Source: Thauera terpenica 58Eu (GTDB lineage Bacteria > Pseudomonadota > Gammaproteobacteria > Burkholderiales > Rhodocyclaceae). From it: DNA of 44,077 bases. Within the stretch, counting starts at the first letter, position 1. Each line of letters opens with the position of its first letter. The stretch covers positions 1 to 44,077 of the forward strand of contig NZ_ATJV01000056.1 in assembly GCF_000443165.1 (NCBI RefSeq), in the 5' to 3' direction. The position numbers and the translations under genes were made by a program. The notes below the pieces were generated by a model that worked only from the letters and a program-made list of their open reading frames with translations, did no database searches and was not told the DNA's origin. Shown here piece by piece: positions 4,537 to 34,562 of this stretch.

Positions 4537-5893
4537 AAAGCAGCGAGCGCTATTGATCGTCGAGGATGATCCCGCGCTGCAAAAGCAGATGCGGTGGGCC
4601 TTCGATACCCGCGAGACGATCGTGGCCGATGACCGGGAGAGCGCGATTGCGCAGTTGCGCCGCCACGAGCCCGCCGTGGTCACGATGGATCTGGGTCTGC
4701 CTCCGGCGCCCGACGACGTCACCGAGGGTTTCCAGCTGCTGCGCGAGATTCTCGCACTGGCCCCGGACACCAAGGTCATCGTGCTCACCGGCCAGCACGA
4801 TCGCGAAAACGCGGTTCGGGCTGTGGGGCTGGGCGCCTATGACTTCTTTGCCAAACCCTTTGAGCCGGAGCTGCTTGAGCTCACCATCGAGCGCGCCTTT
4901 CGCATGCATGACCTGCAGGTCGAGAATGCCCGCCTTGCCGCGGTGGGCAGCAGCCCCTTGTCGGGGCTGCTGACGCGTGATCCCGGCATGCTCAAGATCT
5001 GCCGCACCATCGAGAAGCTCGCCTCCGCCTCCGTTACGGTGGCCTTGCTGGGCGATAGCGGAACGGGCAAGGAAGTGCTGGCGCGTGCGCTGCACGTGCT
5101 GTCGCCGCGCGTCACTGAACGCTTTGTCGCCATCAACTGTGCGGCAATTCCCGACACGCTGCTCGAGAGCGAGCTCTTCGGCTACGAGAAGGGCGCGTTC
5201 ACCGGCGCAGTGAAACAGACCCTGGGCAAGATAGAAACGGCTCACAAGGGCACACTTTTCCTCGACGAAATCGGTGATCTGCCCTTGCCCTTGCAGGCCA
5301 AGCTGCTGCGCTTCCTGCAGGAGCGTGTGATCGAGCGCGTGGGCGGCAGGGACGAAATCCCGGTCGATGTGCGCATCGTCTGCGCCACCCATCGAGATCT
5401 GAAAGCACAGATCAAGGCCGGTCTGTTTCGTGAGGATCTCTACTACCGTCTCGCCGAAATCGTCATTGAAATCCCGCCCTTGAGTGAGCGTGAAGGTGAT
5501 GCGGTATTGCTTGCCCATGCCTTCGTTCAGCGCTATGCGCATGAAAACGGGCGTGGGTCGATGGCCTTGACCGAGGACGCGATCAATGCGATTGACGCCC
5601 ACCCCTGGCCGGGCAACGTGCGAGAGCTCGAAAACTGCCTCAAACGTGCAGTGATCATGGCAGATGGCAATCGCATCACGGCCGACGATCTCGGCCTGGA
5701 GACGGTCGAGGAAGACTTCGAACGACTCAACCTGCGACACGTGCGCGATGAGGCTGAGCGTAGGGCTGTGCTGCGTGTTCTGGCGCGCACCAACAATAAT
5801 GTTGCGCGGGCGGCCGAAATTCTTGGTATCAGCCGTCCCTCGCTCTACGATTTGATGAATCGCTTTGATCTGAAGAAGGAGAGTGGATCGTGA
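4529..5893 (+). CDS. prsR: PEP-CTERM system sigma-54 response regulator PrsR
   Basis: 454-aa NtrC-family activator. The receiver domain has the phosphoacceptor Asp54 in VTMDLGLP. The AAA+ domain has Walker A GDSGTGKE (175-182), the sigma-54 contact loop GAFTGA (222-227) and a Walker B in FLDEIGDLP. The C-terminus carries a Fis-type helix-turn-helix (ARAAEILGISRPSLYDLM). It should be phosphorylated by PrsK and drive RpoN-dependent transcription; in related floc-forming bacteria this pair is linked to PEP-CTERM gene expression. I chose ATG 4529 because the receiver fold begins right after it; the open frame reaches back to 4490. It overlaps prsK by 8 nt and prsT by 4 nt. A sigma-54 promoter at 27278-27293 is the obvious candidate target. 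Confidence 0.94.
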   Translation: MSEKQRALLIVEDDPALQKQMRWAFDTRETIVADDRESAIAQLRRHEPAVVTMDLGLPPAPDDVTEGFQLLREILALAPDTKVIVLTGQHDRENAVRAVGLGAYDFFAKPFEPELLELTIERAFRMHDLQVENARLAAVGSSPLSGLLTRDPGMLKICRTIEKLASASVTVALLGDSGTGKEVLARALHVLSPRVTERFVAINCAAIPDTLLESELFGYEKGAFTGAVKQTLGKIETAHKGTLFLDEIGDLPLPLQAKLLRFLQERVIERVGGRDEIPVDVRIVCATHRDLKAQIKAGLFREDLYYRLAEIVIEIPPLSEREGDAVLLAHAFVQRYAHENGRGSMALTEDAINAIDAHPWPGNVRELENCLKRAVIMADGNRITADDLGLETVEEDFERLNLRHVRDEAERRAVLRVLARTNNNVARAAEILGISRPSLYDLMNRFDLKKESGS

Positions 5894-8694
5894 ATGGCAC
5901 CACAAAGGGCAGGCAGGATTCAGCTTGGAGCATGGGCGCACGGAGTCTGGCGCTGAGCCTGCTTTCCGCGGCTTTGTTGAGCGCTTGTGGTGACAGCCCG
6001 GAGCAGATGATCGCCTCGGCCAAGAGCTATTTGTCCAGCAATGATTCCAACGCAGCTTCGATTCAGCTCAAGAATGCCCTGCAGGAAGATGGCAGTCTGG
6101 TCGAGGCCAGGTTTCTGCTCGGACGCATCCATCTTGAAAATGGCGATATACCTGCCGCGATCAAGGAATTGCAACGCGCCTTCGATCTCGGCTACCCGAA
6201 GGCAGAAGTCGTCCCCTTGTTAGCCCGGGCGCGCGTCCGCGGCGGTGAGTTCGAGCGCGTGCTGGCCGACTTTGCCGACGTCAAGCTTGAGGACGCATCG
6301 GCTCAAGGGCGTCTGCTCGGAGCCGTGGCCGACGCCCAACTCGGCACCACAAAAGTGGCCGATGCCATCGAGACTTATCAACAAGCGCTGGTGGTGCGCG
6401 CCGAGGATGTGGAGGCCGGCATTGGTCTGGCACGCGCCCGGCTCCTCAATCGCGAACCTGAGGCGGCAGAGGCAGCGATCCGGGCAGTCATCGCTCACAG
6501 CCCCGACAGTGGCGAGGCCCAGGCGACGCTGTCAGATGTCATGCAGGTGCAGGGCAAGCCCGAAGAGGCCATCAAGGCGCTGGAGGAAGCAGTGCGCCTG
6601 CGTCCCTCGGTGACGGCCTACCACTACGCGCTGGTATCCCAGCTGTTTCGTGGCGCGCGCCACGAGGAGGCCATAGCGCGTTTCGAACAGATGAAGAGAC
6701 AGGCGCCGAACCACACCTCCACCCGTTATCTGCAGGCCTTCATAGATGCGCGTGCCGATCGTCTGCCCGAGGCGCGCGACGGACTGATGCAGGTTCTCAA
6801 GGAAAGCCCGGACTTCCTGCCCGCGCAACTGCTGGCCGGCACCGTGTTGCTGCGCCTAAACGATCAGGCGCAGGCACGCACTTACCTCAACTCGGTCCTC
6901 AGTCGTGTGCCCGGGCAGGAGTTGGCGCGTACCTTGCTCATCAACTCGCACCTCGCCGCCGGTGAGGCGCCGCGCGCGCTCGAGCTCCTGCAACCCCTGC
7001 TCGAACGCCCGCTCACCGATCCGCGGCTGCTTGCACTGGCGGGGCAGGTGTACGTGGCCAATGGTGACTTTGAAAAAGCTGAGGACTTTTTCCAGCGTGC
7101 CGCCACGGCGGCACCTGAAGACCCCCAGGCGCGTGTGCGCCTTGGCGCAATGCGCATGGCAGGTGGCGATGCCGCAGGCGCCTTTGCCGATTTCGAGAGC
7201 GCTTCGGCGATGGATGACAACGCCATTCAGGCCGACCTCGCGCTCGTTGCCACTCACCTTCGCCGTGGCGAATTCGACAAGGCGCTCCAGGCCCAGGAGC
7301 GGCTCGAGCGCAAGGCACCGCAGAATCCGCTCGTACACAACCTGCGCGGTGGAGTCATGCTTGGCAAGGGCGACGTGCCGGGCGCACGCGCGGCGTTCGA
7401 CCAGGCTCTGGCGCTCAATCCGGACTATCTCGCGGCGGCGCTCAACCTCGCACGTCTCGACATCGCCGAGGGCAAGACTCCCGAAGGGCTTGCGCGCATT
7501 CGCGCGCTTGCCGATCGCGACGAAAAGAGCGTGGAGGCCCGCCTTGCGCTGGCTGACTTGCAACTCGCGACCGCGGCAACGCCCGCCGAGGTGTTCGCCA
7601 CCCTCGAGCGCGCCGAAGCGGCTGCGCCCGGAACGATTCCGCCGGCGCTGGCGATCATCTACCATCATCTGCGTAACGGCGAGATACCGAAGGCTCTTGC
7701 AGCGGCACAAAAACTCGCTGCGGTCTATCCGAACGACGTGCGTTCAATCGATGCCCTCGCGCGCGCTCAGCTCGCGGCCGGTGACACGCAACAGGCTATC
7801 TCGTCCCTCAACCGGCTGGTGAGCTTGCGCCCGCAGTCAACGCTACCTTTGATCATGCTGGCCGACGTGCAGCGCGGTGCCAAGAACGACGCCGCGGCAG
7901 AGCAGGCTTTGCACAAGGCACTTGCGATTGATCCCGACGCGATCGATGTACAGCAACGTCTGGTCGGTGTGATGGCTGACCGCGGTGAGCTTGAGGGGGC
8001 ACTGAAGATCGCACGGACGGTGCAGAAGCAGCATGCTGCGGACCCTGCCGGCTATGCGCTGGAGGCAGGGCTTCATGCGGCAGCCGGGCGCTGGGCTGAT
8101 GCCGTCACCGGCTACCGCCAGGCGCTCGAGCGCAAGGCGGGTGGGGAGGTCGGGATTCGCCTGCATGCAGCACTGATGCGTGCCGAGCGCACGAGTGAGG
8201 CCGACAAGTTCGCCGCCGACTGGCTGCGTCAACAGCCCAAGGACATGACCATGCGCGGCTACCTGGCCGAACGTGCGCTGGGCGAGGGGCGCCACGCCGA
8301 GGCCATGGGGATTTTTTCCAGAATGAACGAAATTTCACCCAATAACGCCCTGGTGCTCAACAACCTGGCGTGGGCAGCAAACCAGGTGAAGGATGCGAAG
8401 GCCCTCGAGTATGCCGAGCAGGCGCAGCGCCTGGCGCCGGACAATGCGGCCATTCTTGACACCCTGGGCATGATCCAGATCGACCGTGGCCAGACCGAAA
8501 AAGGTCTGGGCAATCTTGAGCGCGCGGTAGCGCTCGGTCCAGAGCTGGCCCCGCTGCGACTGAACCTGGCGAAGTCCTACGCGCGTCTGGCACGCAAGGA
8601 CGAGGCGCGCAAGGAGCTCAACACGCTACTGCCCAAGCTGAAGGAAGGAACGCCACTGCACAAGGAAGCCGTTGAACTCTTGAATTCACTCTGA
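5890..8694 (+). CDS. prsT: PEP-CTERM system TPR-repeat lipoprotein PrsT
   Basis: 934-aa protein made almost wholly of TPR helices (motifs such as AALNLARLDIAEGKTPEGLA and ALVLNNLAWAANQVKDAKAL). A signal peptide ends in the lipobox LSAC with Cys33 as lipid attachment site, so it is a predicted outer-membrane or periplasmic lipoprotein scaffold. The family (TIGR02917-like) is restricted to PEP-CTERM/exosortase genomes and probably assists export or assembly of polysaccharide or PEP-CTERM proteins; no molecular mechanism is established. The start is GTG in a GTGA overlap with prsR, with AAGGAGAG correctly spaced upstream; a later ATG (codon 15) is an alternative. A paralogue of nearly equal length lies at 30430-33204. 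Confidence 0.92.
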   Translation: MNGTTKGRQDSAWSMGARSLALSLLSAALLSACGDSPEQMIASAKSYLSSNDSNAASIQLKNALQEDGSLVEARFLLGRIHLENGDIPAAIKELQRAFDLGYPKAEVVPLLARARVRGGEFERVLADFADVKLEDASAQGRLLGAVADAQLGTTKVADAIETYQQALVVRAEDVEAGIGLARARLLNREPEAAEAAIRAVIAHSPDSGEAQATLSDVMQVQGKPEEAIKALEEAVRLRPSVTAYHYALVSQLFRGARHEEAIARFEQMKRQAPNHTSTRYLQAFIDARADRLPEARDGLMQVLKESPDFLPAQLLAGTVLLRLNDQAQARTYLNSVLSRVPGQELARTLLINSHLAAGEAPRALELLQPLLERPLTDPRLLALAGQVYVANGDFEKAEDFFQRAATAAPEDPQARVRLGAMRMAGGDAAGAFADFESASAMDDNAIQADLALVATHLRRGEFDKALQAQERLERKAPQNPLVHNLRGGVMLGKGDVPGARAAFDQALALNPDYLAAALNLARLDIAEGKTPEGLARIRALADRDEKSVEARLALADLQLATAATPAEVFATLERAEAAAPGTIPPALAIIYHHLRNGEIPKALAAAQKLAAVYPNDVRSIDALARAQLAAGDTQQAISSLNRLVSLRPQSTLPLIMLADVQRGAKNDAAAEQALHKALAIDPDAIDVQQRLVGVMADRGELEGALKIARTVQKQHAADPAGYALEAGLHAAAGRWADAVTGYRQALERKAGGEVGIRLHAALMRAERTSEADKFAADWLRQQPKDMTMRGYLAERALGEGRHAEAMGIFSRMNEISPNNALVLNNLAWAANQVKDAKALEYAEQAQRLAPDNAAILDTLGMIQIDRGQTEKGLGNLERAVALGPELAPLRLNLAKSYARLARKDEARKELNTLLPKLKEGTPLHKEAVELLNSL

Positions 8695-12976: not shown

Positions 12977-14905
<1,929 letters not shown>

Positions 14906-21911: not shown

Positions 21912-22667
21912 TCAGGTTTTTGCCTGTTCGTCGAAGCTCTTGCCGATCTCTTCGCGCACGACGCGCCACAGGGGCAGAAGCAGGCTGCGCATGTTGCGGA
22001 TGATCTCCTCGGTGCGCATCATCGACGGAACTCTAGTGCCTCTATGTGAGATGGGCGCTCCGATCTGGATCACCTCCACGCCAAGCTTGGCGAAGTGGGC
22101 GGCGAGGCGCGGTTCGGTGAGGACAAAAACCGTTTCGATCTGCTGCCGTTCGGCGAGCGCCACCGCACCCAGCAACAGACTCGTGGGGATATACGGAAAG
22201 CGTGGCTGCGCACCGGTGGAGAAGTCCGAGCTATTGATTGGCGCCTGCTCGTGCTCCTCGCCCTTGCGGCGCCGATATTGGCCGCGCACCGCGAGTCTGG
22301 AGATTTCCGCGATGCGTCCGCGCGCCAGCCGCGAGGGGTCGACGATTGAACGGTCGAGCAAAGCACCGCAAGTTTTCTCGAACGGGAGCAGTTCTTCGGG
22401 CTGCTCGGGATTGGTCAGCACGAGCCGTGTGCAGCCGACGGAGTCAAAAGGTTCATCGACCTTGCGCAGCAGGCAGTGCACGCTGTGTGCATCGTAGTGG
22501 TCGGTTTCGCGCCGATCGGGACGCAGGGCTTCGAATTTGAGGTTTTCGCAATAGACCTCGTGCCGGATGTGGAAGACATCTCCAAGCAAGGCGTCCGTCG
22601 TTGCGGCGCAGATGTTGAAATACTTCTTGAAACCCGTGCCGAGATTGATTGGTTCAATGATGGACAT
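21912..22667 (-). CDS. PEP-CTERM/exosortase-associated N-acyltransferase (N-acyl amino acid synthase-like)
   Basis: 251 aa. It matches the exosortase-associated acyltransferase family (TIGR03694-like), which shares the GNAT/autoinducer-synthase fold: FHIRHEVYCENLKFE (32-46), CTRLVL, the central block AEISRLAVRGQYRRR and the substrate-side VFVLTEPRLAAHFAKLGVE. Members linked to PEP-CTERM systems have been described as long-chain N-acyl amino acid synthases, so it probably joins a fatty acyl chain (from acyl-ACP or acyl-CoA) to an amino acid; the actual substrates are unknown. It lies 2 nt after the stop of the upstream permease gene, so the two are translationally coupled. Last gene of the permease-permease-acyltransferase operon. 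Confidence 0.9.
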   Translation of the reverse strand: MSIIEPINLGTGFKKYFNICAATTDALLGDVFHIRHEVYCENLKFEALRPDRRETDHYDAHSVHCLLRKVDEPFDSVGCTRLVLTNPEQPEELLPFEKTCGALLDRSIVDPSRLARGRIAEISRLAVRGQYRRRKGEEHEQAPINSSDFSTGAQPRFPYIPTSLLLGAVALAERQQIETVFVLTEPRLAAHFAKLGVEVIQIGAPISHRGTRVPSMMRTEEIIRNMRSLLLPLWRVVREEIGKSFDEQAKT

Positions 22668-22669
22668 GA

Positions 22670-23884
22670 CTAAGCGCCTTGGCGAAGCAGGGTTGCCACA
22701 GGTATGGACGAGATGCGCTTGGCAGGCAGTAGAGATGCCAGCAGCGTTGCAACAAAACCGGTCAGGAAAGCCGATAGCAGAGTGTGGGGGACGATGCGTA
22801 TCATGGCCGTGTAACCCACATTTGAGTTGGGAGGCGGGGGCATGGAAATTCCAATTTTCGACACAGCCATTGCGACGGCGATACCGATCGCCACCCCAAG
22901 CAAGCTGCCGAACAAACCAAGCATCAGATTTTCCGTGACGATCAGCCGGAATATATGACGATTCTGGTTGCCCAGAGCGAGCATCGTGCCGAACTCGGAC
23001 AGGCGTTCGAACGCAGTCATGTTGACGCTGTTTGCGACCGACAGCAACACCATCAATAGAATGATCGCCTGCAGGATGCCGAACTGGCGCTCATATAGCG
23101 TCAGCGTTTTCTCGTAGAAGTCGGAGAGCGCTCGCCAGTGCCTGGCCTCCAGCTTGCTGTCCTTGAGCAGCGCGGAAATTGCGTGATGGGCCGTGTCGGT
23201 GTCTTCGGTGCGGTGGAGGGTTGTGACCAGCAGATTCGCACCGGCGGTATCGAGCAGTTCCTGCGCGGCAGTGAGCGGAATGCGCACCGCACGGGAGTCG
23301 AACTCCTTTGAAAAGCTCTGAAACACACCGATCAGTTCGAAGTCCAGCGTGTTCATCGCTCCGTCGGCTGTGCTCAGCACGAGACTGACGCTGTCGCCCA
23401 CTTTCAGGCTCAGCGAATGTGCCACACCCTGGCCAATAACCATGCCGAATACGTCGTCATCTTTCAGGTGTCTGCCCGATATGATCTGGAGGAAGGTTCC
23501 GAGGCGCGCCTCCTTGTCGGGCTCGATTCCTTCGCCGATGATGCCCAGGTCACGTCTGCCGTTGTTGAGCAAGCCTGTGAAGCTCAGTCTCAGCGTCGCC
23601 TCCTTCACTTGCGGCAAGGCCTCCACGCGTTTGGAAAGTAGGTGCGGATCATCGATCAGGAAACGCTCGGGCTGGCGTGTCCCGCGCTCGATGAAGTCCT
23701 TGCGGAAGACCTGTACGTGTCCGGTCTGCGAGTGGATGATGGCCTCTCCCAGCTGCACGAAGATGTCCTGCACGAAGCCGCCTGACACGATCAGTCCACA
23801 GACGCCAAACACGATCGCAGTCAGCGTCATCAAAGTGCGAACTCGTTGACGCAGCAGGTTTCTGAGCGCAAGTCGGACTAGCAT
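22670..23884 (-). CDS. ABC transporter permease, FtsX/LolC/MacB type (second of two)
   Basis: 404 aa. Topology is the LolC/MacB pattern: one N-terminal membrane segment (about 17-40, TAIVFGVCGLIVSGGF), a large periplasmic MacB_PCD-like domain (about 42-265) and three C-terminal segments (FtsX domain, about 268-395) that include LLSVANSVNMTAFERLSEFGTM, the coupling-helix region. The family extracts lipoproteins or lipids from the inner membrane or drives periplasmic mechanotransmission. It is 3 nt after the first permease and 2 nt before the acyltransferase. No ATP-binding subunit is encoded in the window, so the ATPase must be elsewhere or shared. Confidence 0.87.
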   Translation of the reverse strand: MLVRLALRNLLRQRVRTLMTLTAIVFGVCGLIVSGGFVQDIFVQLGEAIIHSQTGHVQVFRKDFIERGTRQPERFLIDDPHLLSKRVEALPQVKEATLRLSFTGLLNNGRRDLGIIGEGIEPDKEARLGTFLQIISGRHLKDDDVFGMVIGQGVAHSLSLKVGDSVSLVLSTADGAMNTLDFELIGVFQSFSKEFDSRAVRIPLTAAQELLDTAGANLLVTTLHRTEDTDTAHHAISALLKDSKLEARHWRALSDFYEKTLTLYERQFGILQAIILLMVLLSVANSVNMTAFERLSEFGTMLALGNQNRHIFRLIVTENLMLGLFGSLLGVAIGIAVAMAVSKIGISMPPPPNSNVGYTAMIRIVPHTLLSAFLTGFVATLLASLLPAKRISSIPVATLLRQGA

Positions 23885-23887
23885 GCC

Positions 23888-25147
23888 CTACCTTTGGTGA
23901 CGCAGCGCGTCGACGATGTTCATCCGCGAAGCCTTCCAGGCCGGCATGATGCTGGCCAATAGCGTGGTGATGAACGCGAGGGTGAAGGCGTCCATCGCCA
24001 ATCCGGGCGAGATCGAAATGCGTCCGATGAAGCCGATATCCATACCCGGCGGTGGCGGCATGGGGATGCCAACGGCAGAAATGGCCATCGCCAGCAGCGC
24101 GCCCAGGCCCACGCCGAGCAGGCCTCCAATCGCACCCAGCAACGCGCCCTCGGTGAGAAACATCACCATCACGCCGCGCCGGCGCACGCCAAGGGCCATG
24201 GTCGTACCGATCTCGCCCGTTCGTTCTATGACCGCCATCGACAAAGTGTTTGAAATGCTCAGTATGACGATCAGTGCGATCAGCAGTCGCACGACATCGA
24301 CCTGGCGTGTGAATAGCTTGACGGTCTTGTTGTAGAAGTCGGCAAGTTCGTACCAAGGAATGACTTCGAACTTGTCCGCTGGCAAGGCCTGGCGCAGACG
24401 CTCCACCGCGCCATCGGTTCCGTCCGTTTCCTCGAGCAGCACGACCCAGCTGGTTGCGCCCTCCACCCGCATCAGCTTGCGGGCTATGTCTATCGGTACT
24501 CTCAGCGCTGCGTCATCGTATGCCTTGGCGGTGGTGGCGAAGGTGCCGACGACCTTCAACTCGACTGCGTTCAGGCCACCCTTGGCTGTGTTCGCAAGCA
24601 AAACGATGGTGTCGCCAGGTCTGGCGCCCAGGTTGGCCGCCAGACCTTGCCCGAGAATGGCTGACTGCTCCTCGCTTGAGGCCAGGTTGTTACCCGCCAC
24701 GATCCGGACCGAGCGCGCAATGGGAGCTTCGAGTTCGGGCTCGATGCCTTCTCCGGTGAAGCTCAAAGCCGTATTGTCGCCAAGCGAAATCAGGCCGTTG
24801 AAGACAAGCCTTGGGGCTACCGTGCGCAGGCGCTCCACTCCCGCGTGTTTGGCTACGCCTGAATCAGCAGGCAAAAGATACTGGTAGGGGTCGCCGAGGC
24901 CCTGGCGGAAATAGCCCGGACGAATCACCTGTACGTGGCCGAGCTGAGAGTGAATCGTGGACTCGCGCATATTTCCGAGTAGCCAGTGGATAAACCCGCC
25001 CGCGAGCAAAAAGGTGACCACTCCGCCAGAAATGATGAGGAGCGCCAAGGCCGCCCTTCGACGCTGGCGAAAGAGGTTGCGGAGCGCCATCAGGAGGGTG
25101 AGCCTGGCGTGGTTTGTGGCTTCGTCGAGCATCGTGTCGCGTGTCAC
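23888..25147 (-). CDS. ABC transporter permease, FtsX/LolC/MacB type (first of two)
   Basis: 419 aa with the same plan as its neighbour: an N-terminal membrane segment (about 33-55, ALALLIISGGVVTFLLAGG), a periplasmic domain, and a C-terminal FtsX domain with SNTLSMAVIERTGEIGTTMALGVRR, a textbook coupling region. The two permeases are clearly paralogous (compare SQLGHVQVIRPGYFR with SQTGHVQVFRKDFIE) and probably form a heterodimer like LolC-LolE. The start is uncertain: GTG at 25147 or ATG at 25132, neither with a good ribosome binding site. Only about 55 bp separate it from the divergent ThiF gene, so both promoters must be compact or overlapping. Confidence 0.86.
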   Translation of the reverse strand: MTRDTMLDEATNHARLTLLMALRNLFRQRRRAALALLIISGGVVTFLLAGGFIHWLLGNMRESTIHSQLGHVQVIRPGYFRQGLGDPYQYLLPADSGVAKHAGVERLRTVAPRLVFNGLISLGDNTALSFTGEGIEPELEAPIARSVRIVAGNNLASSEEQSAILGQGLAANLGARPGDTIVLLANTAKGGLNAVELKVVGTFATTAKAYDDAALRVPIDIARKLMRVEGATSWVVLLEETDGTDGAVERLRQALPADKFEVIPWYELADFYNKTVKLFTRQVDVVRLLIALIVILSISNTLSMAVIERTGEIGTTMALGVRRRGVMVMFLTEGALLGAIGGLLGVGLGALLAMAISAVGIPMPPPPGMDIGFIGRISISPGLAMDAFTLAFITTLLASIMPAWKASRMNIVDALRHQR

Positions 25148-25202
25148 AGATAACCGGAGCTATCATAGCCGTTGGGACAACCTCACAGAAGGAGAATCGC
25201 GG

Positions 25203-26093
25203 ATGCAGGGCGATTTTGACTACGACACCGCCTTTTCCCGCAACCTGGGCTGGGTTACGGAAGCCGAGCAAGGCTTGCTGCGCGGTAAGCGGGTCGCCAT
25301 CGCCGGAATGGGGGGGGTGGGGGGCGTGCACTTGCTGACGCTGGCCAGGCTGGGGATCGGCGGCTTCAACATTGCTGATTTCGATCGGTTCGACCTGGCC
25401 AACTTCAATCGACAGGCGGGGGCTCTGGTTTCCACCATCGGTCAGCCCAAGGTCGAGGTCTTGCGCGGGATGGCCGAGGATATCAATCCCGGGTTGAACC
25501 TCAGTATTTTCGCCGATGGTGTTGACGCCGCCAACCTTGACGACTTTCTCGAAGGTGTTGATCTCTACGTTGACGCGCTGGATTTCTTCGCCTTCTCAGC
25601 CCGACGAGCCGTATTCTCTGCCTGTCGCAATCGAGGCATCCCGGCGATCACTGCTGCGCCGCTGGGCATGGGTACGGCGGTGTTGGTGTTTACCGAAGAC
25701 AGCATGTCCTTTGATGACTATTTCGGTCTTGCAGGTTGCACCGAAGAGGAGATGGCCGTGCGCTTCCTGCTCGGGCTCTCGCCCGGCATGTTGCAACGCA
25801 GCTACCTCGCGGACCCCTCACGGGTGGACCTGCGTGCCCGCAAGGGGCCGTCGACGATTGCGGCCTGCCAGATCTGCGCAGGCGTCACCGCGGTTGATGC
25901 ATTGAAGCTGCTGCTTGGTCGTGGTGAGGTCTTGAAAGCGCCCTGGGGGTATCAGTTTGATGCTTACCGCAATCGCCTCAAACGTACCTGGCGCCCGGGC
26001 GGGCATCGCAATCCGCTTCAACGTATAGGGCTCTGGCTGGGACGCAGGCAGTTACAGCGTATGAAGAACACCTCCGAGGCTGGGCATGAGTGA
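25203..26093 (+). CDS. ThiF/MoeB/E1-like adenylyltransferase
   Basis: 296 aa, one ThiF domain. The nucleotide-binding loop is G35-M-G-G-V-G-G41, followed by ADFDRFDLANFNRQ (58-71) with the conserved Asp and the NRQ arginine needed for adenylation. One C-x-x-C (ACQIC) is visible late in the protein; the second pair expected of zinc-binding MoeB/ThiF is not obvious, and no rhodanese domain follows. E1-like enzymes adenylate a C-terminal or small-molecule carboxylate. No ubiquitin-like, ThiS or MoaD partner is in the window, so a small-molecule or peptide substrate is possible. AAGGAG precedes the ATG. It overlaps the nitroreductase gene by 8 nt. The P-loop is coded by runs of eight and six G separated by one T. 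Confidence 0.88.
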   Translation: MQGDFDYDTAFSRNLGWVTEAEQGLLRGKRVAIAGMGGVGGVHLLTLARLGIGGFNIADFDRFDLANFNRQAGALVSTIGQPKVEVLRGMAEDINPGLNLSIFADGVDAANLDDFLEGVDLYVDALDFFAFSARRAVFSACRNRGIPAITAAPLGMGTAVLVFTEDSMSFDDYFGLAGCTEEEMAVRFLLGLSPGMLQRSYLADPSRVDLRARKGPSTIAACQICAGVTAVDALKLLLGRGEVLKAPWGYQFDAYRNRLKRTWRPGGHRNPLQRIGLWLGRRQLQRMKNTSEAGHE

Positions 26094-27177
26094 TTCAAGT
26101 CTGCTCCAAGACATACTTCAGCGCGCGCGCTGGGCGCCGAGCGGCGACAATACGCAGCCGTGGCGCTTCGAGCTGGTGGACGCGGCGCACCTTGCCGTGC
26201 ATGGGTTCGACACCCGCGATCACGTCCTCTACGATTTCGATGGTCGTGCCAGCCAGCTTGCGCATGGTGCACTGCTCGAGACGATCCGGCTTGCGGCGAG
26301 TTGCCATGGCATGCGGGTGGAATGGCGCGTACGTCCGGATTGCCCGGAGACGACCCCGATTTATGATGTCCGCCTGGTGCCGGACGCCACCATCGAGCGC
26401 GATCCGCTGCAGGCCTTCATCGAAACCCGAGTTGTGCAGCGCCGCCCCATGCGCTTCAGCGCTCTTGCGCCCGGGCAGCGCGAGGCACTCGCGCGCGCGG
26501 TCGGCCCGGAATATCGCCTGCGATTTTTCGAGACCTTTGCCGACCGGCTCCGCGTCGCGCGTTTGCTGTGGGCGAATGCTCACATCCGGCTTACGACGCC
26601 TGAGGCCTTTGAGGTGCATCGCAGCATCATCGAGTGGGGCGTCCAGTTCAGCGAGGATCGTATCCCTGATCGGGCGGTCGGCGTCGACCCCATGACCTCA
26701 CGCTTGATGCGCTGGGTGATGCAGAGCTGGCAGCGGGTCGACTTTTTCAACCGTTACCTGCTCGGCACGGTGGTGCCACGCATTCAGCTCGACTTCCTGC
26801 CCGCACTTGCATGTTCCGCACATGTCTTGATGCAGCCCCTGCGCAGGCCTGTTGAACTGTCTGACTACCTCAAGGCCGGAATTGCGCTGCAACGCCTGTG
26901 GCTGGCAGCCGAGGAGCAGGGTATGCACCTTCAGCCCGAGATGACGCCGGTGATCTTTCGCTGGTATGCGCAGGCTGGGCGTTCGCTCTCGGCGCGACAA
27001 GGTGCTGACACAGCGGGCTTGGCACTCGCACGAAATTTCGAGGCGATCGTGCCCGCTGCTGTGGACGATCCGTTCGTGTTTTTTGCTCGCGTCGGGGTTT
27101 CCGATTTGCCGAGTTCGCGCTCCGTGCGTAAGCCGCTCACTGAGCTGATGTGGTCGGATGTGCACAGGGATGGGTGA
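26086..27177 (+). CDS. nitroreductase-family flavoprotein
   Basis: 363 aa. The N-terminal motif RARWAPSGDNTQPWRF (13-28) and the C-terminal RKPLTELM fit FMN-dependent nitroreductases, but the protein is longer than the usual 200 aa, with an extended middle like the Acg-type or tandem forms. Members reduce nitro groups or quinones, or act as oxidases and dehydrogenases in natural-product pathways (for example azoline oxidation). The 8-nt overlap with the ThiF gene indicates coupled synthesis. Together with the nearby acyltransferase and permeases it suggests redox tailoring of an activated or acylated product; this is inference. No dedicated terminator was seen downstream. Confidence 0.83.
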   Translation: MSDSSLLQDILQRARWAPSGDNTQPWRFELVDAAHLAVHGFDTRDHVLYDFDGRASQLAHGALLETIRLAASCHGMRVEWRVRPDCPETTPIYDVRLVPDATIERDPLQAFIETRVVQRRPMRFSALAPGQREALARAVGPEYRLRFFETFADRLRVARLLWANAHIRLTTPEAFEVHRSIIEWGVQFSEDRIPDRAVGVDPMTSRLMRWVMQSWQRVDFFNRYLLGTVVPRIQLDFLPALACSAHVLMQPLRRPVELSDYLKAGIALQRLWLAAEEQGMHLQPEMTPVIFRWYAQAGRSLSARQGADTAGLALARNFEAIVPAAVDDPFVFFARVGVSDLPSSRSVRKPLTELMWSDVHRDG

Positions 27178-27293: not shown

Positions 27294-27386
27294 TATAGAT
27301 GTGCGAGCGATTCGGTAGTGCTGAGACCTTCTTCAAGGTCAAGGGCGCCAGACGCCAGCAGTAATTTTTTTGAATCGGAGGACACA

Positions 27387-28403
27387 ATGAACATGAAGAA
27401 GACAACGCTCGCTATGGCTCTGCTGGCCGGTCTTGCAATGGGCGTTTCAGGGCAGGCTTCTGCCAGCGTCTATGCAGGTTCGTCGCTGGACATCAGCAAC
27501 CTCACCATCGGGTTTGTGAACGCGAGCAGCGGCGCGCTGATCACCAACCTGAATCCGCAGTTCACTTTCAACGTCGAGGACTCCGCGACGCTGAACAGCA
27601 ACACGCAAGCGTTTGCCGCAGGCTGCTCCAGCCTCGTCGGCAATTGCGGTACTTCCCCTGGGCCAGTGTTGACGGTGAATGCAGCGAACGCACCCGGTTC
27701 CACCGTGGTCCGTGCTAACTCGAACTATTCGCTGATGGGCCAGTATACCGGCACCTTTGCGAACTCGAACGTTGAAATCACGACCGCGCAGCTGGTCAAT
27801 GGTATTCCGTCGCACGCTCGGCAAGTAGCCGAGGCGGAAGTCTTGGGCAAGGGTCAAGCCCAGGCCTCGGCGAACATCCAGTCGAACACGACCTGGACCT
27901 TCACCTTCGACATCACTGAAACGGCGAACATGGCTCTGAGCTTCATCGCCAACCCGGAGATGAAGGCCGACGTGTCGCTGGTGCCGCCTTACACGGCCGG
28001 TATTGCGCAGACCAACATCACAACCAACTTCACCTTGAATCGTCTGTCCGGCGGCGCCGGCGCGAGTCCTTTCGTGAGTTGGTCGCCGAACGGCGTCAAC
28101 GGCGACGCCATCTGCGTGAACGTGCTGGGTTGTGCTGAGGTGGATAGCGAGAGCCTCAACGAAACGCTCGGTGTTGGTCCGCTTTCTTCGACGCTGACGC
28201 ATAGCTTGGGCACCCCGGGCAGTGCATTCAGTCTGAACATTGCCGGTCTGAAGGCGGGCCGTTATGCGCTGACGCTGGCTGGGACGACGAGTGTGAACGT
28301 GACCCAGGTCCCGGAACCCGGCACCTTGTTGTTGATTGGTGGTGCCCTGGCTGCGCTCGGCGTGGGTGGTGCTCGTCGTCGCGCTGGTGCGATGGCTGCC
28401 TGA
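27387..28403 (+). CDS. PEP-CTERM sorting-domain surface protein
   Basis: 338 aa. A signal peptide (MNMKKTTLAMALLAGLAMG, cleaved near ASA-S) and a C-terminal tripartite sorting signal are both clear: VPEPGT (308-313), a hydrophobic segment LLLIGGALAALGVGG, and the basic tail ARRRAG. Exosortase should cut near the PEP motif; the processed protein is exported and usually linked to extracellular polysaccharide in floc or biofilm. The mature part is Ser/Thr/Asn-rich and beta-rich, as in many members, with EDSATLNSN near residue 65. CGGAGGA precedes the ATG. Transcription should start at the sigma-54 promoter at 27278-27293. No exosortase gene is in the window. Confidence 0.93.
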   Translation: MNMKKTTLAMALLAGLAMGVSGQASASVYAGSSLDISNLTIGFVNASSGALITNLNPQFTFNVEDSATLNSNTQAFAAGCSSLVGNCGTSPGPVLTVNAANAPGSTVVRANSNYSLMGQYTGTFANSNVEITTAQLVNGIPSHARQVAEAEVLGKGQAQASANIQSNTTWTFTFDITETANMALSFIANPEMKADVSLVPPYTAGIAQTNITTNFTLNRLSGGAGASPFVSWSPNGVNGDAICVNVLGCAEVDSESLNETLGVGPLSSTLTHSLGTPGSAFSLNIAGLKAGRYALTLAGTTSVNVTQVPEPGTLLLIGGALAALGVGGARRRAGAMAA

Positions 28404-29148: not shown

Positions 29149-30381
29149 TCAGCGCGGTGGGGCGACATCAAAGCGCTGCATGTAGGTGGCGAAGCGTTCG
29201 CGAATGCCACCGGCGCTGAGGCCGAAATCTTCCGGGCTGTACTTGTGGCCCCGGCTCTTTTCGCGATCGGCCACAAGAAAGCTCGCCATACGCTGTTCTG
29301 CCGCGGGGCTGAGCTCAAGCCCAAAGTAATCGTAGATGCTGTGCACGGTCTGCATCGGATCGGCCGTCAGGCCTTGGTAGGGCAGGTCGAGGAAGCGCGC
29401 TGGCGGATGTGAGGGCCTTGCCTCCAGATACGCATCCATGTCGGTCGCGAGGCGATCGAGAATTTGTTCGCCGAGCTGTTGCGGGTCAATCCGTGCCGAG
29501 CAGATGCCGCGAAACGCCGCGTTGAGACTGGCCCAGGATGACACAGCCTGCACCGGGTCGCGATGCAGGTGCACCAGGCAGGCGTCCGGATAGACCTGCA
29601 GGATCGCGTCAGTCGCCGCGAGATGATCGGGAGATTTGAGCAGCCAGCGTGTCGCCGGATAGCAGGACTGAAGGGTTTGCAAGATGCGCTTGTGGTGCTG
29701 GTAAGTCGGCAGGTGTTCGACGCTGTTGAGCCACTGCGAGAAGGCGGGGACATTGAACATCCCGGCGAGCGCCTGCGTATCGAAACCCTGCATCAACAGC
29801 GGAGTACATTCTTCCGGACCGTCAAGGTGGAACTCGTGGATGTTCTCCAGCTGCGGCGCCAGATGGCGTTGAAAGTGCATCAGCAACTGCCCGGTCCGTC
29901 GTCTCGGATCCTGCTCGGGGCGTCGCACGCGCGCGGGGGGGATCTGGGAGACCGTGGCTTCCCAGTTGCTCAGGTAGCGGTGTGCCGGGTCGCACGCGAG
30001 GAGGTTGAACAGGAAGGAGGTACCGCAGCGCGGGAGCCCCAGGATGATGAGCGGTTGCTCAGTGCTGGCGCGTAGTATTTCCGGCCGTTCCTGCCACAGC
30101 TGGGCGAGGCGACCGCGGTTGCTCAACAAGCCGGCCAGGAGCTGCGATACGTAGTAACGCCCGAATGGATGGAGCTCGGCGGTGTCGTTGAGCGCATTGA
30201 CGAGACGCTCAAGCGCTTCAAGCGTTGCGCCGTCGAGGCTGGGCGATGAGCACGATTTCGCGGTCTTTTCCAGCAGCGCTGATGATGACAGCTTGGCCGC
30301 GCTCGCCTTGCTGTCGATGAGGGTGGAGGCGAAGTTCCAGCCCCTCACCAGCAGGCTGCGATACGGTTCATGCGTGCTCAT
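29149..30381 (-). CDS. sulfotransferase
   Basis: 410-aa soluble protein of the PAPS-dependent sulfotransferase_3 type. The 5'-phosphosulfate-binding loop is LGLPRCGTSF (114-123) and the 3'-phosphate motif is HRDPVQAVSSW; LLKSPDHL and the C-terminal REKSRGHKYSPEDFGL are family hallmarks. It should transfer sulfate from PAPS to a hydroxyl or amine of a carbohydrate, lipid or other small molecule; the acceptor is unknown. It lies between the PrsT-like lipoprotein gene (48 bp upstream) and the small membrane protein gene (43 bp downstream). A place in a PEP-CTERM locus suggests sulfation of an envelope glycan or lipid, which is inference. Confidence 0.88.
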   Translation of the reverse strand: MSTHEPYRSLLVRGWNFASTLIDSKASAAKLSSSALLEKTAKSCSSPSLDGATLEALERLVNALNDTAELHPFGRYYVSQLLAGLLSNRGRLAQLWQERPEILRASTEQPLIILGLPRCGTSFLFNLLACDPAHRYLSNWEATVSQIPPARVRRPEQDPRRRTGQLLMHFQRHLAPQLENIHEFHLDGPEECTPLLMQGFDTQALAGMFNVPAFSQWLNSVEHLPTYQHHKRILQTLQSCYPATRWLLKSPDHLAATDAILQVYPDACLVHLHRDPVQAVSSWASLNAAFRGICSARIDPQQLGEQILDRLATDMDAYLEARPSHPPARFLDLPYQGLTADPMQTVHSIYDYFGLELSPAAEQRMASFLVADREKSRGHKYSPEDFGLSAGGIRERFATYMQRFDVAPPR

Positions 30382-30429: not shown

Positions 30430-33204
30430 TCAGTTGCGGGCGTCGAGCTCGGCCACGAGCTTGCGGGCATGTTCTGCGACGGGTGAGCCACTTCCCTCCT
30501 TCAGAACTGTGCCCAGTGTTTCTCGGGCATCCTTCATCTTGCCTTGGGCGATCTGAACGCGCGCGAGATTGAGCGCAATCTGCATGTCCTTGGGGCTTGC
30601 TTTACTCGCTTCAGTGACGAAGCGCGCGGCCTGGGCAAAATCCTTGCGTTCGAGATAGAGCATGCCGAGCGTATCGAGAACATGGGGGTCCTCGGGCGCG
30701 AGCTCAAGCGCCCGCCGTGCCAGACGGAGTGCTTCCTCCGGATTTTGCGCCCGGCTGAGCCAGGCGATGTTGTTGATTGAGGGGATGTGGTTCGGCTCTA
30801 GCTTGAGGACCCGCTGATAGGCTGCGACCGCTTCGGCTTCCTGGCCAAGGCTGAGGTGTGCTCCGGCCAGGTGAAGGAGCGCCGCAATGTCGCCCGGGTG
30901 GGCGTCGATCCAGGTGTTGAGTCCGCTGAGAGCAGCTTCATAGTTCTTCTGTCCCCATTGCGCACGTACCAGTTCGAGCGCAAGTTCGGTGTTCGGCGTT
31001 TTGGCGAACGCACGACCGAGATTGTTTTCAGCGGCGACGAAGTCGCCTGTGACGAGGGCGTGCCAGCCGCTTGTGGCGAGCACTTCCGGCAGTTCACCGA
31101 AGTCCTGCAGCAGTTTTTTGGCAGCTGCTGCAGCCTTGTCGAACAGCTTGGCATGAGTCAGAAAACGAACCTCGCCGATGCGCGCGGGCAGATAGCGCGG
31201 ATCAAGCTTGAGTGCTTCGTCCAGTGCGCGCTGCGCGCTGAGGAATTGACCGCCATGCAGCAGGCTTTCCGAGAGCATGAAGCGTGCCCGCGCAGACTCA
31301 GGAGCGACCCGGACGAGGTGTTCGAAGCTGGCTCTCGCCGCCGTTGCATCATTCTTGGCTAGCGCTGCGCTGCCTCTGAGCTCGAGAAAGAGGGGGTTTG
31401 CGGCCAGTTGTGCATCGCTCAGGTTGCGCAGGACTTCGAGTGCCTTGTCGGGTGCGTCCGCGTTGAGGTGGCGCCTCGCGAGGAGTGCTCTAGCCGTGTC
31501 GGCGGCGGGGTTTGCCTTGATGAGCTTCTCGAGCGTGAGGTTGGCTGCTTCCGCGTTGCCGAGAGCATGCTCTGCCGCGACCAGCAGCAGCGCTGAGGCC
31601 TCGTCCGTCGGTGAGCTGAGAGTGATAGGTCCGACCAGTTCGCGGACGCGTTCGTAGTTGTGATCATTGAGTTCGAGCTTGGCCATGTTCAGACGAGCGC
31701 TGCGGTTGGTCGGCTGTTGGTCGAGTACCTTCTGCAGCTTGATCCGGGCTTGTGGCCACTGCCCGCTTGCGAGGTCGATTGCAGCATCGAGCCCGAGTGG
31801 ATCGATTTGATCCGGGTAGGCGCTGAGCAAGGTCTTCACGCGCGCACGCGCGTCGTCGAAATGGTCGTCACGGAAGGCCTGCAAGGCCAGGATGAAGGCG
31901 GACTGGTATTCGTCGGCCTTGCCGGGGGGCAGTTCCGGCACGGCTGCACCCGCCATCAGTTGAGCGAGCATCAGCAGGCTGACGACAGAGCGTGAATCCG
32001 GGTGCAGGACTGCCAGCCGCTCGGCATAACCGAGGCCACTACGTACGTCGCCTTCGAGCAGTGCTGCGGATGCCAGCATTTGAAGCGTGATGACATCGTC
32101 AGGCTTGCCTTTCAGTGCTGCTGCAAGCGCCGAGCGTGCGGCGGCGAACTCGCCCTTGCTGATCTCGGCAAGTCCAACCAGAACGTTCGCTTCGCGCGTG
32201 CCAGGGGCTGCTGAGCGGATGAATTCCGCATGCGTCAGCGCCTGCTCGGGTTGATTGAGCATGAGCCGCGTGGTTGCGAGGTACAGGCGACTGGGCAGAT
32301 AAGCCGGGGCTTCAGTGATGCTGGTTTCGAAGGCGACAGCCGCTTCGTTGAATTTTTGCTGATTGAAATACAGCAGTCCACGCAGATAGGCGACGTAAGG
32401 GTGTCCAGCTTGTCTGCTGAGCGCATCGAGGTCGGCTTCAGCTGGCTTGAATTTGCCTTGCTGCAAGCGTGCATGGGCGCGTCGGGCAAGTTCGAGACTG
32501 CGGTAGGTACGTGCCGAAATGGCCTTGTCGTAGGCATTTTCTGCAGCCTCGAAGTTGCCTTGCTCAAGTTCAAGGTCACCAAGCAGCGACCACCCGTCGG
32601 CGAGGTCGGGCGTCTGTGCGAGGGCTTTCTCAAGCAGGGTGCGTGCGGGCTCGAAATCCGCGCGCAAAACATGTAGCTGTGCCATCCCCAGCAGAACATC
32701 CGGATTGTCGGGGTCGAGTCCCTCGGCGCGCTCGAACTGAATCCTGGCTTCGTTGGCGTCGCTCTTGAGCAACAATGCCGCGCCGCGCAGGCTCAGCAGC
32801 GTGGCCTGTGTTGACTTCGAGGCATCGTTCGGGAGGGTGGAAGTCTCGGTCAGCAAACGATCAGTGTTGCCTTGCTGGAGAAGGGCGCGGGCAAGCACCG
32901 GTAGCGCTTCGGCCCGTGGTATGCCAAGACCCATTGCGAGCAGGGCATCCCGCTCCGCTTTCTGCCACTCGCCAAGTTCAAGTGAGGTTTTTGCCAGCAA
33001 CCAGCGCGCGTCCCGATTCTGCGGGTCTTGCTGAAGGGCGTTGCTGAGTTCGATGGATGCTGCGGAAAAGGATTTGTCGGCAAGGTGCTGGCGCGCCTTC
33101 TCGACTTGTTCAGTCGGGCTTTGATCTTGAGCACAGGCACCCAGCAACAGCATGCTGCTGAGGGTAAGAGCTCGAAAAGGCTTGTAAAGGCGACGGTTCT
33201 GCAT
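30430..33204 (-). CDS. second PrsT-like TPR-repeat lipoprotein
   Basis: 924 aa. The signal peptide (SSMLLLGAC) gives a lipobox with Cys24; TPR helices fill the rest (for example ALKLDPRYLPARIGEVRF and AAYQRVLKLEPNHIPSINNI). Length, lipobox and repeat pattern match PrsT at 5890-8694, including the ending NNIAWLSRAQNPEEALRLA against NNLAWAANQVKDAKALEYA, so the two are paralogues at clear distance. It is probably a periplasmic or outer-membrane scaffold serving the sulfotransferase/glycosyltransferase group rather than the core regulon. It starts 146 bp after the glycosyltransferase stop and may have its own promoter (33298-33306). Confidence 0.9.
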   Translation of the reverse strand: MQNRRLYKPFRALTLSSMLLLGACAQDQSPTEQVEKARQHLADKSFSAASIELSNALQQDPQNRDARWLLAKTSLELGEWQKAERDALLAMGLGIPRAEALPVLARALLQQGNTDRLLTETSTLPNDASKSTQATLLSLRGAALLLKSDANEARIQFERAEGLDPDNPDVLLGMAQLHVLRADFEPARTLLEKALAQTPDLADGWSLLGDLELEQGNFEAAENAYDKAISARTYRSLELARRAHARLQQGKFKPAEADLDALSRQAGHPYVAYLRGLLYFNQQKFNEAAVAFETSITEAPAYLPSRLYLATTRLMLNQPEQALTHAEFIRSAAPGTREANVLVGLAEISKGEFAAARSALAAALKGKPDDVITLQMLASAALLEGDVRSGLGYAERLAVLHPDSRSVVSLLMLAQLMAGAAVPELPPGKADEYQSAFILALQAFRDDHFDDARARVKTLLSAYPDQIDPLGLDAAIDLASGQWPQARIKLQKVLDQQPTNRSARLNMAKLELNDHNYERVRELVGPITLSSPTDEASALLLVAAEHALGNAEAANLTLEKLIKANPAADTARALLARRHLNADAPDKALEVLRNLSDAQLAANPLFLELRGSAALAKNDATAARASFEHLVRVAPESARARFMLSESLLHGGQFLSAQRALDEALKLDPRYLPARIGEVRFLTHAKLFDKAAAAAKKLLQDFGELPEVLATSGWHALVTGDFVAAENNLGRAFAKTPNTELALELVRAQWGQKNYEAALSGLNTWIDAHPGDIAALLHLAGAHLSLGQEAEAVAAYQRVLKLEPNHIPSINNIAWLSRAQNPEEALRLARRALELAPEDPHVLDTLGMLYLERKDFAQAARFVTEASKASPKDMQIALNLARVQIAQGKMKDARETLGTVLKEGSGSPVAEHARKLVAELDARN

Positions 33205-33328: not shown

Positions 33329-33354
33329 TTGCTTTGACCAGTTGCTTTGATCAG
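33329..33354. repeat. 13-bp tandem duplication across the glycosyltransferase stop codon
   Basis: TTGCTTTGACCAG is followed at once by TTGCTTTGATCAG, a direct tandem repeat differing at one base. The second copy contains the stop codon of the glycosyltransferase gene (minus strand). It is probably a replication-slippage duplication. Confidence 0.8.
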
Positions 33355-34562
33355 TGCACGAGGTCGAGCGTGTTCAGAATCACGGGAAGGATGTCGCTCA
33401 GGTTGGACCGGGAGCATGAGGTCCGGATGCGTCCTGCCTGCTCACGATAGCCGGGGTGATGAAGCAGGCGGTCGACGGCCAGGGTGACGAGTTTCGCTGA
33501 ACTGCGGTCGGCCCTGATCGTGAGGCCGGCGCCGAAGGCCTCGATCGCCCGCATGTTGAGGAACTGATCCATGTTGCGCGGGATGCCGAGCACGGGGACC
33601 CCGTTTGCCAAGGCCTGATTGGTCGTTGGGCTGCCGCCATTACAAACCACAAGATCGGCCATTGCGCACATCAGGTCTCCCGGGAGGTAATCCGCGATGT
33701 AGGCCCGTGAGCTCTTCAGCTCGCTCGTTAGCGTGCGCCCCGCTGTGCTGATCACGATGTTGCAATCGAAGTGTTCGAGTGCCGGCACAAGGGCCGAAAG
33801 AGCCGACGGTGAGCCTGAGCTGCCCATCGTGACGTAGACGAGGGGTCGTCCGTCTGCAGGGGGCGCGGAGAACTTCGCTGAATCGGGAGACCAGGCGAGG
33901 GGGCCGATGAATAGCGCCCCCGAATGAGGGTGTACATCGGGGAACAGCGGTGGCGGATTGGCGAAGAGACGTAGATCTGCGTCGGTGTAGCACTTGCGCA
34001 GGTCGCCCTCGAAGCCAGGCAGCCCGTAACTGCGACGCAGGCGCTCCATGGGTCGGGCGTGGATTCTGAAGGCCAGCGGCGCCACGTGGCGAAACAGAGC
34101 CTGGCTCAGGCCAAGCGGTGCGAACTGGGTCCACGGAAAGACCGGCAGGATGGGGGCTAGTGGGGTCTCCGGGCTCCAGTAGGCGTCACAGATGGTGGCA
34201 TAAGGAAGACGTTCGAGCCGGGCGCTGACCGAGAGGGAGAGCCTGAAGTCGCCGATTATGGCGCCAGGGCGGACCTCCTGGATAAGTTTGCGGTCATCTT
34301 CAACGTATTGCTGCAAGGTCTTGAAGGTATAGAGCGGTTTGCCAGAGTCCAGTCGTTGCGCGAATTCCGTTGGGGGCTGGGTTTCCAGATCCATTACCCG
34401 AAAGGGGGCGTCTGCAGTCATCCAGGCGTAGGCCTGCGGGCGGGCAAGGACAACGTCGTGCCCGAGCTGGTGCAGGGCGCGGGCCAGCAGCAAGGGGCGA
34501 CCGACATGGGCGAGGGTGGAGCCTTCGCCCATCAGGAGTATGCGCATGGGAGAGGATGGCAT
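33351..34562 (-). CDS. GT1/UGT-like glycosyltransferase
   Basis: 403 aa with the two-domain GT-B fold. The N-terminal part begins RILLMGEGSTLAHVGRPLLLARAL, the acceptor-side nucleotide-sugar fold; the C-terminal part has YVTMGSSGS, YIADYLPGDLMCAMADLVVCNGG and GVPVLGIPRNMDQFLN, the donor-binding block of MGT/UGT-type enzymes. The usual His in the HGG motif is Asn here (VVCNGGSPTTNQAL), as in some archaeal and bacterial relatives. It probably glycosylates a lipid or small molecule. The start may be 34562 or ATG 34547; neither has a clear ribosome binding site. First gene of the probable group with PrsT2, sulfotransferase and membrane protein. Confidence 0.82.
   Translation of the reverse strand: MPSSPMRILLMGEGSTLAHVGRPLLLARALHQLGHDVVLARPQAYAWMTADAPFRVMDLETQPPTEFAQRLDSGKPLYTFKTLQQYVEDDRKLIQEVRPGAIIGDFRLSLSVSARLERLPYATICDAYWSPETPLAPILPVFPWTQFAPLGLSQALFRHVAPLAFRIHARPMERLRRSYGLPGFEGDLRKCYTDADLRLFANPPPLFPDVHPHSGALFIGPLAWSPDSAKFSAPPADGRPLVYVTMGSSGSPSALSALVPALEHFDCNIVISTAGRTLTSELKSSRAYIADYLPGDLMCAMADLVVCNGGSPTTNQALANGVPVLGIPRNMDQFLNMRAIEAFGAGLTIRADRSSAKLVTLAVDRLLHHPGYREQAGRIRTSCSRSNLSDILPVILNTLDLVH

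Follow-up and report, generated by a model that had tools for sequence, protein, structure and literature searches.

In Mycobacterium tuberculosis, TyzA, TyzB and TyzC acylate tyrosine and cyclise the product with ATP (the latter by a ThiF homologue); a flavin oxidase that belongs to the nitroreductase superfamily then desaturates it with O2 (PMC10404671, PMC12856293). TrzAS carries out Tyz-like chemistry on tryptophan with ThiF fused to the oxidase (PMC12856293), and OxzAB of P. rubra is cited as the first case in the Tyz and Trz papers (PMC10404671, PMC12856293). Kyonggic, thalassotalic and stieleriacine acids have been proposed to arise from clusters that combine an N-acyl amino acid synthase (NAS) with ThiF and a nitroreductase (PMC12479983). 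Here, we analysed a stretch of 44,077 nucleotides from Thauera terpenica 58Eu (contig NZ_ATJV01000056.1 of assembly GCF_000443165.1, positions 1-44,077; the window), in which genes for a NAS (NAS1), a ThiF-like protein and a nitroreductase-superfamily flavoprotein (NTR) lie together with two permease genes (PermA and PermB). Exosortase-linked N-acyl amino acid synthases of the same acyltransferase family as NAS1 were reportedly described in a PEP-CTERM context by Craig, Cherry and Brady in 2011, in a study that is not known to deal with ThiF, NTR or an exporter like the one below; to our knowledge, the link between these synthases and exosortases has lacked a mechanism. We think it rather probable that XrtA-exosortase bacteria of this kind produce lipids of the N-acyl (dehydro)amino-acid or oxazolone type and that a dedicated Lol-like machine carries these to the outer membrane.

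The enzyme chemistry has known precedents, and the linked exporter is the new part. The preliminary description of this DNA knew of no characterised pathway with this gene set, a statement that did not hold: TyzABC and TrzAS (and OxzAB, as cited) have been biochemically studied. Like the Oxz, Tyz and Trz systems, the window combines an N-acyltransferase with a ThiF cyclase and an adjacent or fused Acg-type flavin oxidase, with conserved ATP-site residues; it differs from them in three respects: its acyltransferase falls in the exosortase family TIGR03694, each of ThiF and NTR has its own gene, and the enzymes are linked to a Lol-like exporter. In the main text of PMC10404671, the words exosortase, PEP-CTERM and permease do not occur and transporter occurs once (mmpL9), and the portions consulted of PMC12856293 mention neither an exosortase nor a Lol-like exporter. 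The proposed kyonggic, thalassotalic and stieleriacine acid clusters (NasY, ThiF and nitroreductase) share the three-gene logic of the window, with gaps of less than 10 bp or overlaps between the three genes in Massilia kyonggiensis and Thalassotalea (PMC12479983); exosortase and permease have no occurrence in the main text of that paper.

NAS1 scored 251 bits against TIGR03694 (cut-off 111.95) and provides the N-acyl amino acid synthase of acyl-oxazolone (Oxz/Tyz/Trz) biosynthesis. ThiF scored 478.9 bits against NF006077 (cut-off 266), 307 bits against PRK14851 and 66 bits against the Rv1355c-family model (PRK07877); the last two scores are below the whole-protein cut-offs, as expected, because those models span a fusion and ThiF is one domain. 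ThiF matched MoeB/ThiF structures, with Asp127 aligned to MoeB Asp130, and the adenylation residues (G35, G37, G38 and G40 of the glycine-rich loop, R70, K83 and D127) were invariant in 21/21 sequences, indicating the intact adenylation site of a ThiF-type cyclase. The flavoprotein gave 116 bits against the Rv1355c-family (cut-off 476) and 100 bits against the Acg-family (cut-off 199), and a sequence search of the PDB returned no match at E 0.01. Its AlphaFold model (pLDDT 85) had as best PDB fold match 2YMV, a M. smegmatis Acg homologue (E 3.7e-12, 18% identity), which is reported as the closest homologue of the TrzS oxidase domain (PMC12856293). R168 and Q283 of the flavoprotein were invariant in 21/21 sequences and are possible equivalents of TrzS R540 and Q651, by offset only. 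An Acg-type oxidase is therefore adjacent to ThiF in the window, as judged from the 8-nt gene overlap and the 2YMV fold match. Besides the window, 40 other ThiF loci were fetched (some short where the contig ends) and mapped with profiles built from these data; ThiF and the oxidase were fused as one protein in 9/41 ThiF loci, which is the OxzB/TrzS architecture, and were separate, adjacent and on one strand in 14/41, window counted. From homology, the three enzymes are new members of the known acyl-oxazolone/N-acyl-dehydrotyrosine pathway type, with putative activities to match those of their homologues. The earlier proposals that ThiF could adenylate a free carboxylate and that the flavoprotein could oxidise or reduce the product were right in outline: relatives of ThiF use ATP to act on the carboxylate group of N-acyl amino acids, and relatives of the flavoprotein oxidise these amino acids.

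E1-like enzymes occur together with nitroreductase-fold enzymes in azole ribosomally synthesised and post-translationally modified peptide (RiPP) systems. ThiF might activate a peptide or small protein, as in sulfur-carrier or RiPP-type chemistry, with NTR acting on a peptide and the NAS unrelated. We give this very little credence. MoeB carries two zinc CxxC pairs, whereas the window ThiF has one CxxC (residues 222-225) and belongs to the PRK08223/PRK14851 family; a NAS was present in the fetched stretch of 35/41 ThiF loci; and no beta-grasp, YcaO or precursor family was detected in the larger open reading frames (ORFs) at E 0.001, small ORFs not being scanned and part of the ORF family scans being run only at E 1e-20 and 1e-15.

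The permeases had lolCE as their nearest model, with 97 (PermA) and 104 bits (PermB), far below its cut-off of 362, and a profile of 12 PermA relatives best matched LolF/LolE, then LolC, in the PDB. Profile mapping of the loci revealed three recurrent companions of these permeases: an ATPase similar to LolD, a LolA_like protein (PF17131) and a DUF1302 protein. In the genome of the window (G000) these three genes lie together on another contig (G000:C49:31.9-34.8 kb). The preliminary description had suggested that the permeases move the product to the outer membrane; they are indeed of the lipid-extraction ATP-binding cassette (ABC) transporter type, but that account was incomplete, as the ATPase, LolA-like and DUF1302 genes are on the other contig. 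This half of the exporter adjoins a NAS2-type gene (L083 7095-7886, + strand; NAS2 profile, 202 bits), which is convergent with the DUF1302 gene at a distance of 6 nt, and xrtA is about 17 kb away (G000:C49:14072-14848; 338 bits, above the cut-off). The ATPase of this genome scored 223 bits against LolD (cut-off 308), and its LolA-like protein matched no NCBIfam model at 1e-5. The Pfam assignments each come from one relative (DUF1302 from L041, LolA_like from L056, FHA+ABC from L046 and FeeM, PF21926, from L057), and the LolA-like, ATPase, DUF1302 and NAS2 copies of the window's genome were tied to these scanned relatives by profiles. The DUF1302 protein is a predicted outer-membrane barrel, based on the Pfam match in L041 and on the model of a protein from another relative, which is rich in strands (pLDDT 74, pTM 0.70).

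With LolCDE-LolA this exporter shares a Type VII ABC permease pair, a LolD-like ATPase and a LolA-like periplasmic protein; it differs in that permeases and ATPase are below the lolCE and LolD cut-offs and in that a DUF1302 protein accompanies them (LolB was not searched for). The partner in YbbAP-TesA is a periplasmic hydrolase, in contrast to the carrier and outer-membrane protein found here. A housekeeping Lol identity was rejected because a canonical LolC/E sits elsewhere in the same genome (C60, 480 bits). The sole ABC ATPase in the window matched by the ATPase profile (12977-14905) was rejected as the partner (110 bits, two ABC stretches, ABC_tran_CTD), and the ABC transporter of the T. 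aminoaromatica floc mutant (tmz1t_1376) was not tied to the exporter. We found no description of this exporter or of its tie to exosortases among the matches listed in the open-licence literature searched.

Table 1. Coordinates of the cassette and of the exosortase-related genes in the window.
Feature	Position	Strand	Basis
NAS1, exosortase-type N-acyl amino acid synthase, GNAT/autoinducer-synthase-like	21912..22667	-	TIGR03694, Pfam Acetyltransf_5
PermA, LolE/LolC-like Type VII ABC permease	22670..23884	-	MacB_PCD + FtsX, lolCE model
PermB, second of the LolC/E-like permease pair	23888..25147	-	FtsX + MacB_PCD, lolCE model
Divergent intergenic region, 55 nt	25148..25202	.	read off the sequence
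ThiF/E1-like protein, putative cyclase, OxzB/TyzB/TrzS-type	25203..26093	+	NF006077, PRK14851, PRK07877, MoeB/ThiF structures
NTR, putative flavin-dependent oxidase, nitroreductase superfamily (Acg/TyzC type)	26086..27177	+	Rv1355c-family, Acg-family, 2YMV fold match
EDSAP-1 family PEP-CTERM protein, likely exosortase substrate	27387..28403	+	NF041538 238 bits, PF07589
PrsT-like tetratricopeptide repeat (TPR) protein, XrtA/PEP-CTERM system	30430..33204	-	TIGR02917 523 bits
prsK	2452-4536	+	TIGR02916/TIGR02915/TIGR02917 scan of window
prsR	4490-5893 (ORF start mechanical)	+	TIGR02916/TIGR02915/TIGR02917 scan of window
Second prsT	5890-8694	+	TIGR02916/TIGR02915/TIGR02917 scan of window

All five ORFs of the cassette were present where the preliminary description had placed them, with the tight spacing it had reported (2 nt between NAS1 and PermA, 3 nt between PermA and PermB, the overlap of ThiF and NTR, and about 55 bp between the divergent starts). 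The ThiF ORF opens at GTG 24957; the start was set at ATG 25203, with AGAAGGAG just upstream, because the GTG would run into the divergent permease. No match to the sigma-54 promoter patterns tried was found in the 55-nt divergent region.

The co-conservation of the five genes that had been proposed as a check was tested in named records. Permease-centred loci with named records were taken as the best-scoring 80 of 242 and are consequently biased to near relatives. The layout NTR-/ThiF-/PermB+/PermA+/NAS1+ was found in 14/80 loci (distance-and-strand test), with hosts including Pseudothauera, Thauera, Azoarcus and Denitromonas. A further 10 loci had NTR-ThiF/PermB-PermA, four of the five genes, NAS1 not being in place, and 2/80 had ThiF/PermB-PermA-NAS1 without NTR; ThiF was present in the fetched stretch of 46/80. 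Measured from mechanical ORF starts, ThiF and PermB were 60-83 nt apart in 11 five-gene loci, and the starts overlapped in the other three (L101, L104 and L121). ATPase, LolA-like and DUF1302 genes were all in the PermA stretch in 25/80 named loci. Among the 40 relatives of the ThiF set, six (L037, L041, L046, L050, L051 and L056) harboured all eight roles inside one 19.5-kb stretch. Two kinds of NAS were distinguished, the TIGR03694-like NAS1 and NAS2, whose one scanned member is FeeM (PF21926).

Next, we analysed gene presence in 250 genomes of the order, 14 control genomes and 247 genomes of the phylum. ThiF was above the NF006077 cut-off in 41/250 genomes of the order and in 0/14 controls. 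The permease and DUF1302 families occurred in the identical 26/250 genomes, and 25 of these also had the LolA-like family; the fragmented genome G126 lacked it, and G005 had the LolA-like gene outside the permease count, on a 6.5-kb contig ending inside PermB. A LolD-like ATPase (at least 380 bits) was present in the fetched DNA, as opposed to a genome-wide search, of 25/26 exporter genomes, the exception (G029) being a stretch that ends inside the DUF1302 gene. XrtA was above cut-off in 26/26 exporter genomes, 39/41 ThiF genomes and 60/250 overall. Outside the order, the permease family was found in 2/247 phylum genomes (own genome and one weak match) and ThiF in 5/247 (own genome counted). 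These sets were defined as follows: permeases, 27 genomes matched, G058 (one 374-bit match) left out; LolA-like, 34 matched, eight below 235 bits left out; XrtA, 60 above cut-off of 89 matched; TIGR03694, 28 of 58; ThiF, 41 of 43. Alignment A1 comprised 12/15 PermA seeds, A2 9/12 ATPase genes, A3 9/12 LolA-like genes, A4 11/15 in the DUF1302 cluster and A5 19/25; A6, A7 and A8 comprised the window plus 21/80, 20/29 and 20/46, respectively.

The confinement of the exporter to XrtA genomes also suits a different explanation, namely that it is an accessory sorter of lipoproteins or PEP-CTERM proteins for the XrtA machinery, with NAS, ThiF and NTR nearby only through clustering of XrtA genes. The closest solved relatives of the permeases transport lipoproteins, the permeases lie beside PEP-CTERM-like or eps-type genes in loci inspected by eye, and the presence of exporter and ThiF is independent inside XrtA genomes: among the 60, ThiF was in 17/26 with the exporter vs. 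22/34 without it (p=0.59). Once the comparison was conditioned on XrtA, genome presence/absence could not serve as proof that permeases and ThiF are tied, and exporter and ThiF look like separate modules of one biology. A weak tie was detected with the synthase, the exporter being in 15/24 XrtA genomes with TIGR03694 vs. 11/36 without (p=0.014); these Fisher values ignore phylogeny, and no presence test corrects for relatedness. Gene proximity speaks against the sorter explanation. ThiF was less than 11 kb from a permease gene in all 17 genomes with both (in G107 the gene is PermB, with PermA elsewhere), whereas in 11 of these 17 xrtA was more than 60 kb distant or on a different contig. In addition, both the window and the 14 five-gene loci have NAS1 directly after the permeases on the same strand; in the window's genome, the half with the ATPase, LolA-like and DUF1302 genes has a NAS neighbour of its own. 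We consider the sorter explanation rather unlikely. A NAS was present in the fetched stretches of 22/26 exporter genomes, including 8/9 of those without ThiF (exception, G224). Together with the ThiF-permease proximity, this makes the NAS product the most likely cargo of the exporter, and ThiF and NTR would be optional tailoring enzymes.

Substrates, products, cargo and direction of transport can be proposed from the gene content, families, linkage and co-occurrence observed. NAS1 would attach a fatty acyl chain to a probably aromatic amino acid; ThiF would activate the carboxylate with ATP and close an oxazolone ring; and the Acg-type flavoprotein would insert an alpha,beta double bond using O2. 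This acylation, ATP-driven ring closure and O2-driven desaturation are assigned after the homologues. The product would be an N-acyl oxazolone or a ring-opened N-acyl dehydro-amino acid of the kyonggic or thalassotalic acid type. The Lol-like transporter would extract the lipid from the inner membrane and pass it to the periplasmic LolA-like carrier, which would deliver it to the DUF1302 outer-membrane protein; gene context and the Type VII ABC mechanism suggest this extraction, hand-over and delivery.

Several observations, besides the p=0.59 comparison, weigh against the proposed lipid synthesis and export. The exporter is split over two contigs in the window's genome, and its cargo is a prediction from gene context. 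Of the permease-centred loci, 20/80 had no NAS, ThiF or NTR above thresholds in the fetched flanks (five titled Zoogloea, three Accumulibacter; several with short flanks), four exporter genomes (G111, G218, G092 and G224) had no NAS in the fetched stretches, and some ThiF loci with the exporter (L034, L049, L058 and L062) had no strong NTR. Actinobacterial tyrazolones and tryptazolones were found mainly in cells (PMC10404671, PMC12856293), and the stieleriacine study saw dehydro acids and no oxazolones (PMC12479983). The last result touches the nature of the final product. It has nearly even chances of being the open N-acyl dehydro-amino acid, with the ring transient and the exporter shipping a stable amphiphile: the same gene trio is present in the producers of kyonggic, thalassotalic and stieleriacine dehydro acids, in which oxazolones of these families have not been seen (PMC12479983). 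By contrast, oxazolones have been detected in P. rubra (as cited), M. tuberculosis, M. smegmatis and Rhodococcus RHA1 (PMC10404671, PMC12856293), and acid lability can conceal them.

The 2025 tryptazolone paper calls the role of bacterial acyl-oxazolones a major unresolved question (PMC12856293). A dedicated five-protein envelope transport module that is present only in XrtA genomes (sample of 250) and physically linked to the synthases would provide a destination for these lipids. If true, Lol-type trafficking would be extended beyond lipoproteins to small lipids, and both the role of acyl-oxazolones and the link between NAS and exosortases would become open to gene-deletion tests in bacteria that can be cultured, such as Thauera. 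A bolder proposal is that NAS, ThiF and NTR would make an acyl-oxazolone that the Lol-like machine would move, and that would serve as an envelope reagent of the XrtA system, acylating or anchoring exosortase-sorted proteins or exopolysaccharide at the outer membrane. The acyl-oxazolone would then be the missing lipid partner of exosortase sorting in those bacteria that carry the module. We regard this proposal as a long shot: sortase-type transfer would need a free alpha-amine, which an N-acylated amino acid lacks, and the acyl-oxazolone cannot be a universal anchor, because the exporter is in only 26/60 and ThiF in 39/60 XrtA genomes.

The cassette is adjoined by the EDSAP-1 PEP-CTERM protein, which associates it with XrtA; this protein was scanned as ORF 27318-28403, and ATG 27387, preceded by GGAGG, was taken as the start. 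Together with a sulfotransferase, PrsT, prsK, prsR and the second prsT, this neighbour marks the window as exosortase territory. The sulfotransferase (Sulfotransfer_3 family, 29149-30381, - strand) is flanked by PrsT on one side and, on the other, by a 191-aa protein that matches no family; it is a possible further tailoring enzyme. Pairs of PrsT-like TPR proteins, as in the window, are also present in relatives (e.g. L047, L055, L067 and L068).

A glycosyltransferase family represented in the window (33351-34562, - strand), weakly similar to TIGR01426, scored at least 200 bits in 13/41 ThiF loci. Its gene was at most about 60 nt from the ThiF-NTR gene(s) in L036, L039, L043, L046, L053 and L059, and the enzyme may glycosylate the pathway product. 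In the more distant ThiF loci L069 and L071, a weak NTR-like gene was beside ThiF and a strong NTR was beside a glycosyltransferase, about 8 kb off. Finally, a family of approximately 530-aa proteins (12 loci), which by eye looks like an FAD-linked oxidase, adjoins the permease pair at L131:7038-8633, L139:7197-8738, L143:7176-8741 and L153:7050-8615, four loci in which no NAS, ThiF or NTR was over threshold.

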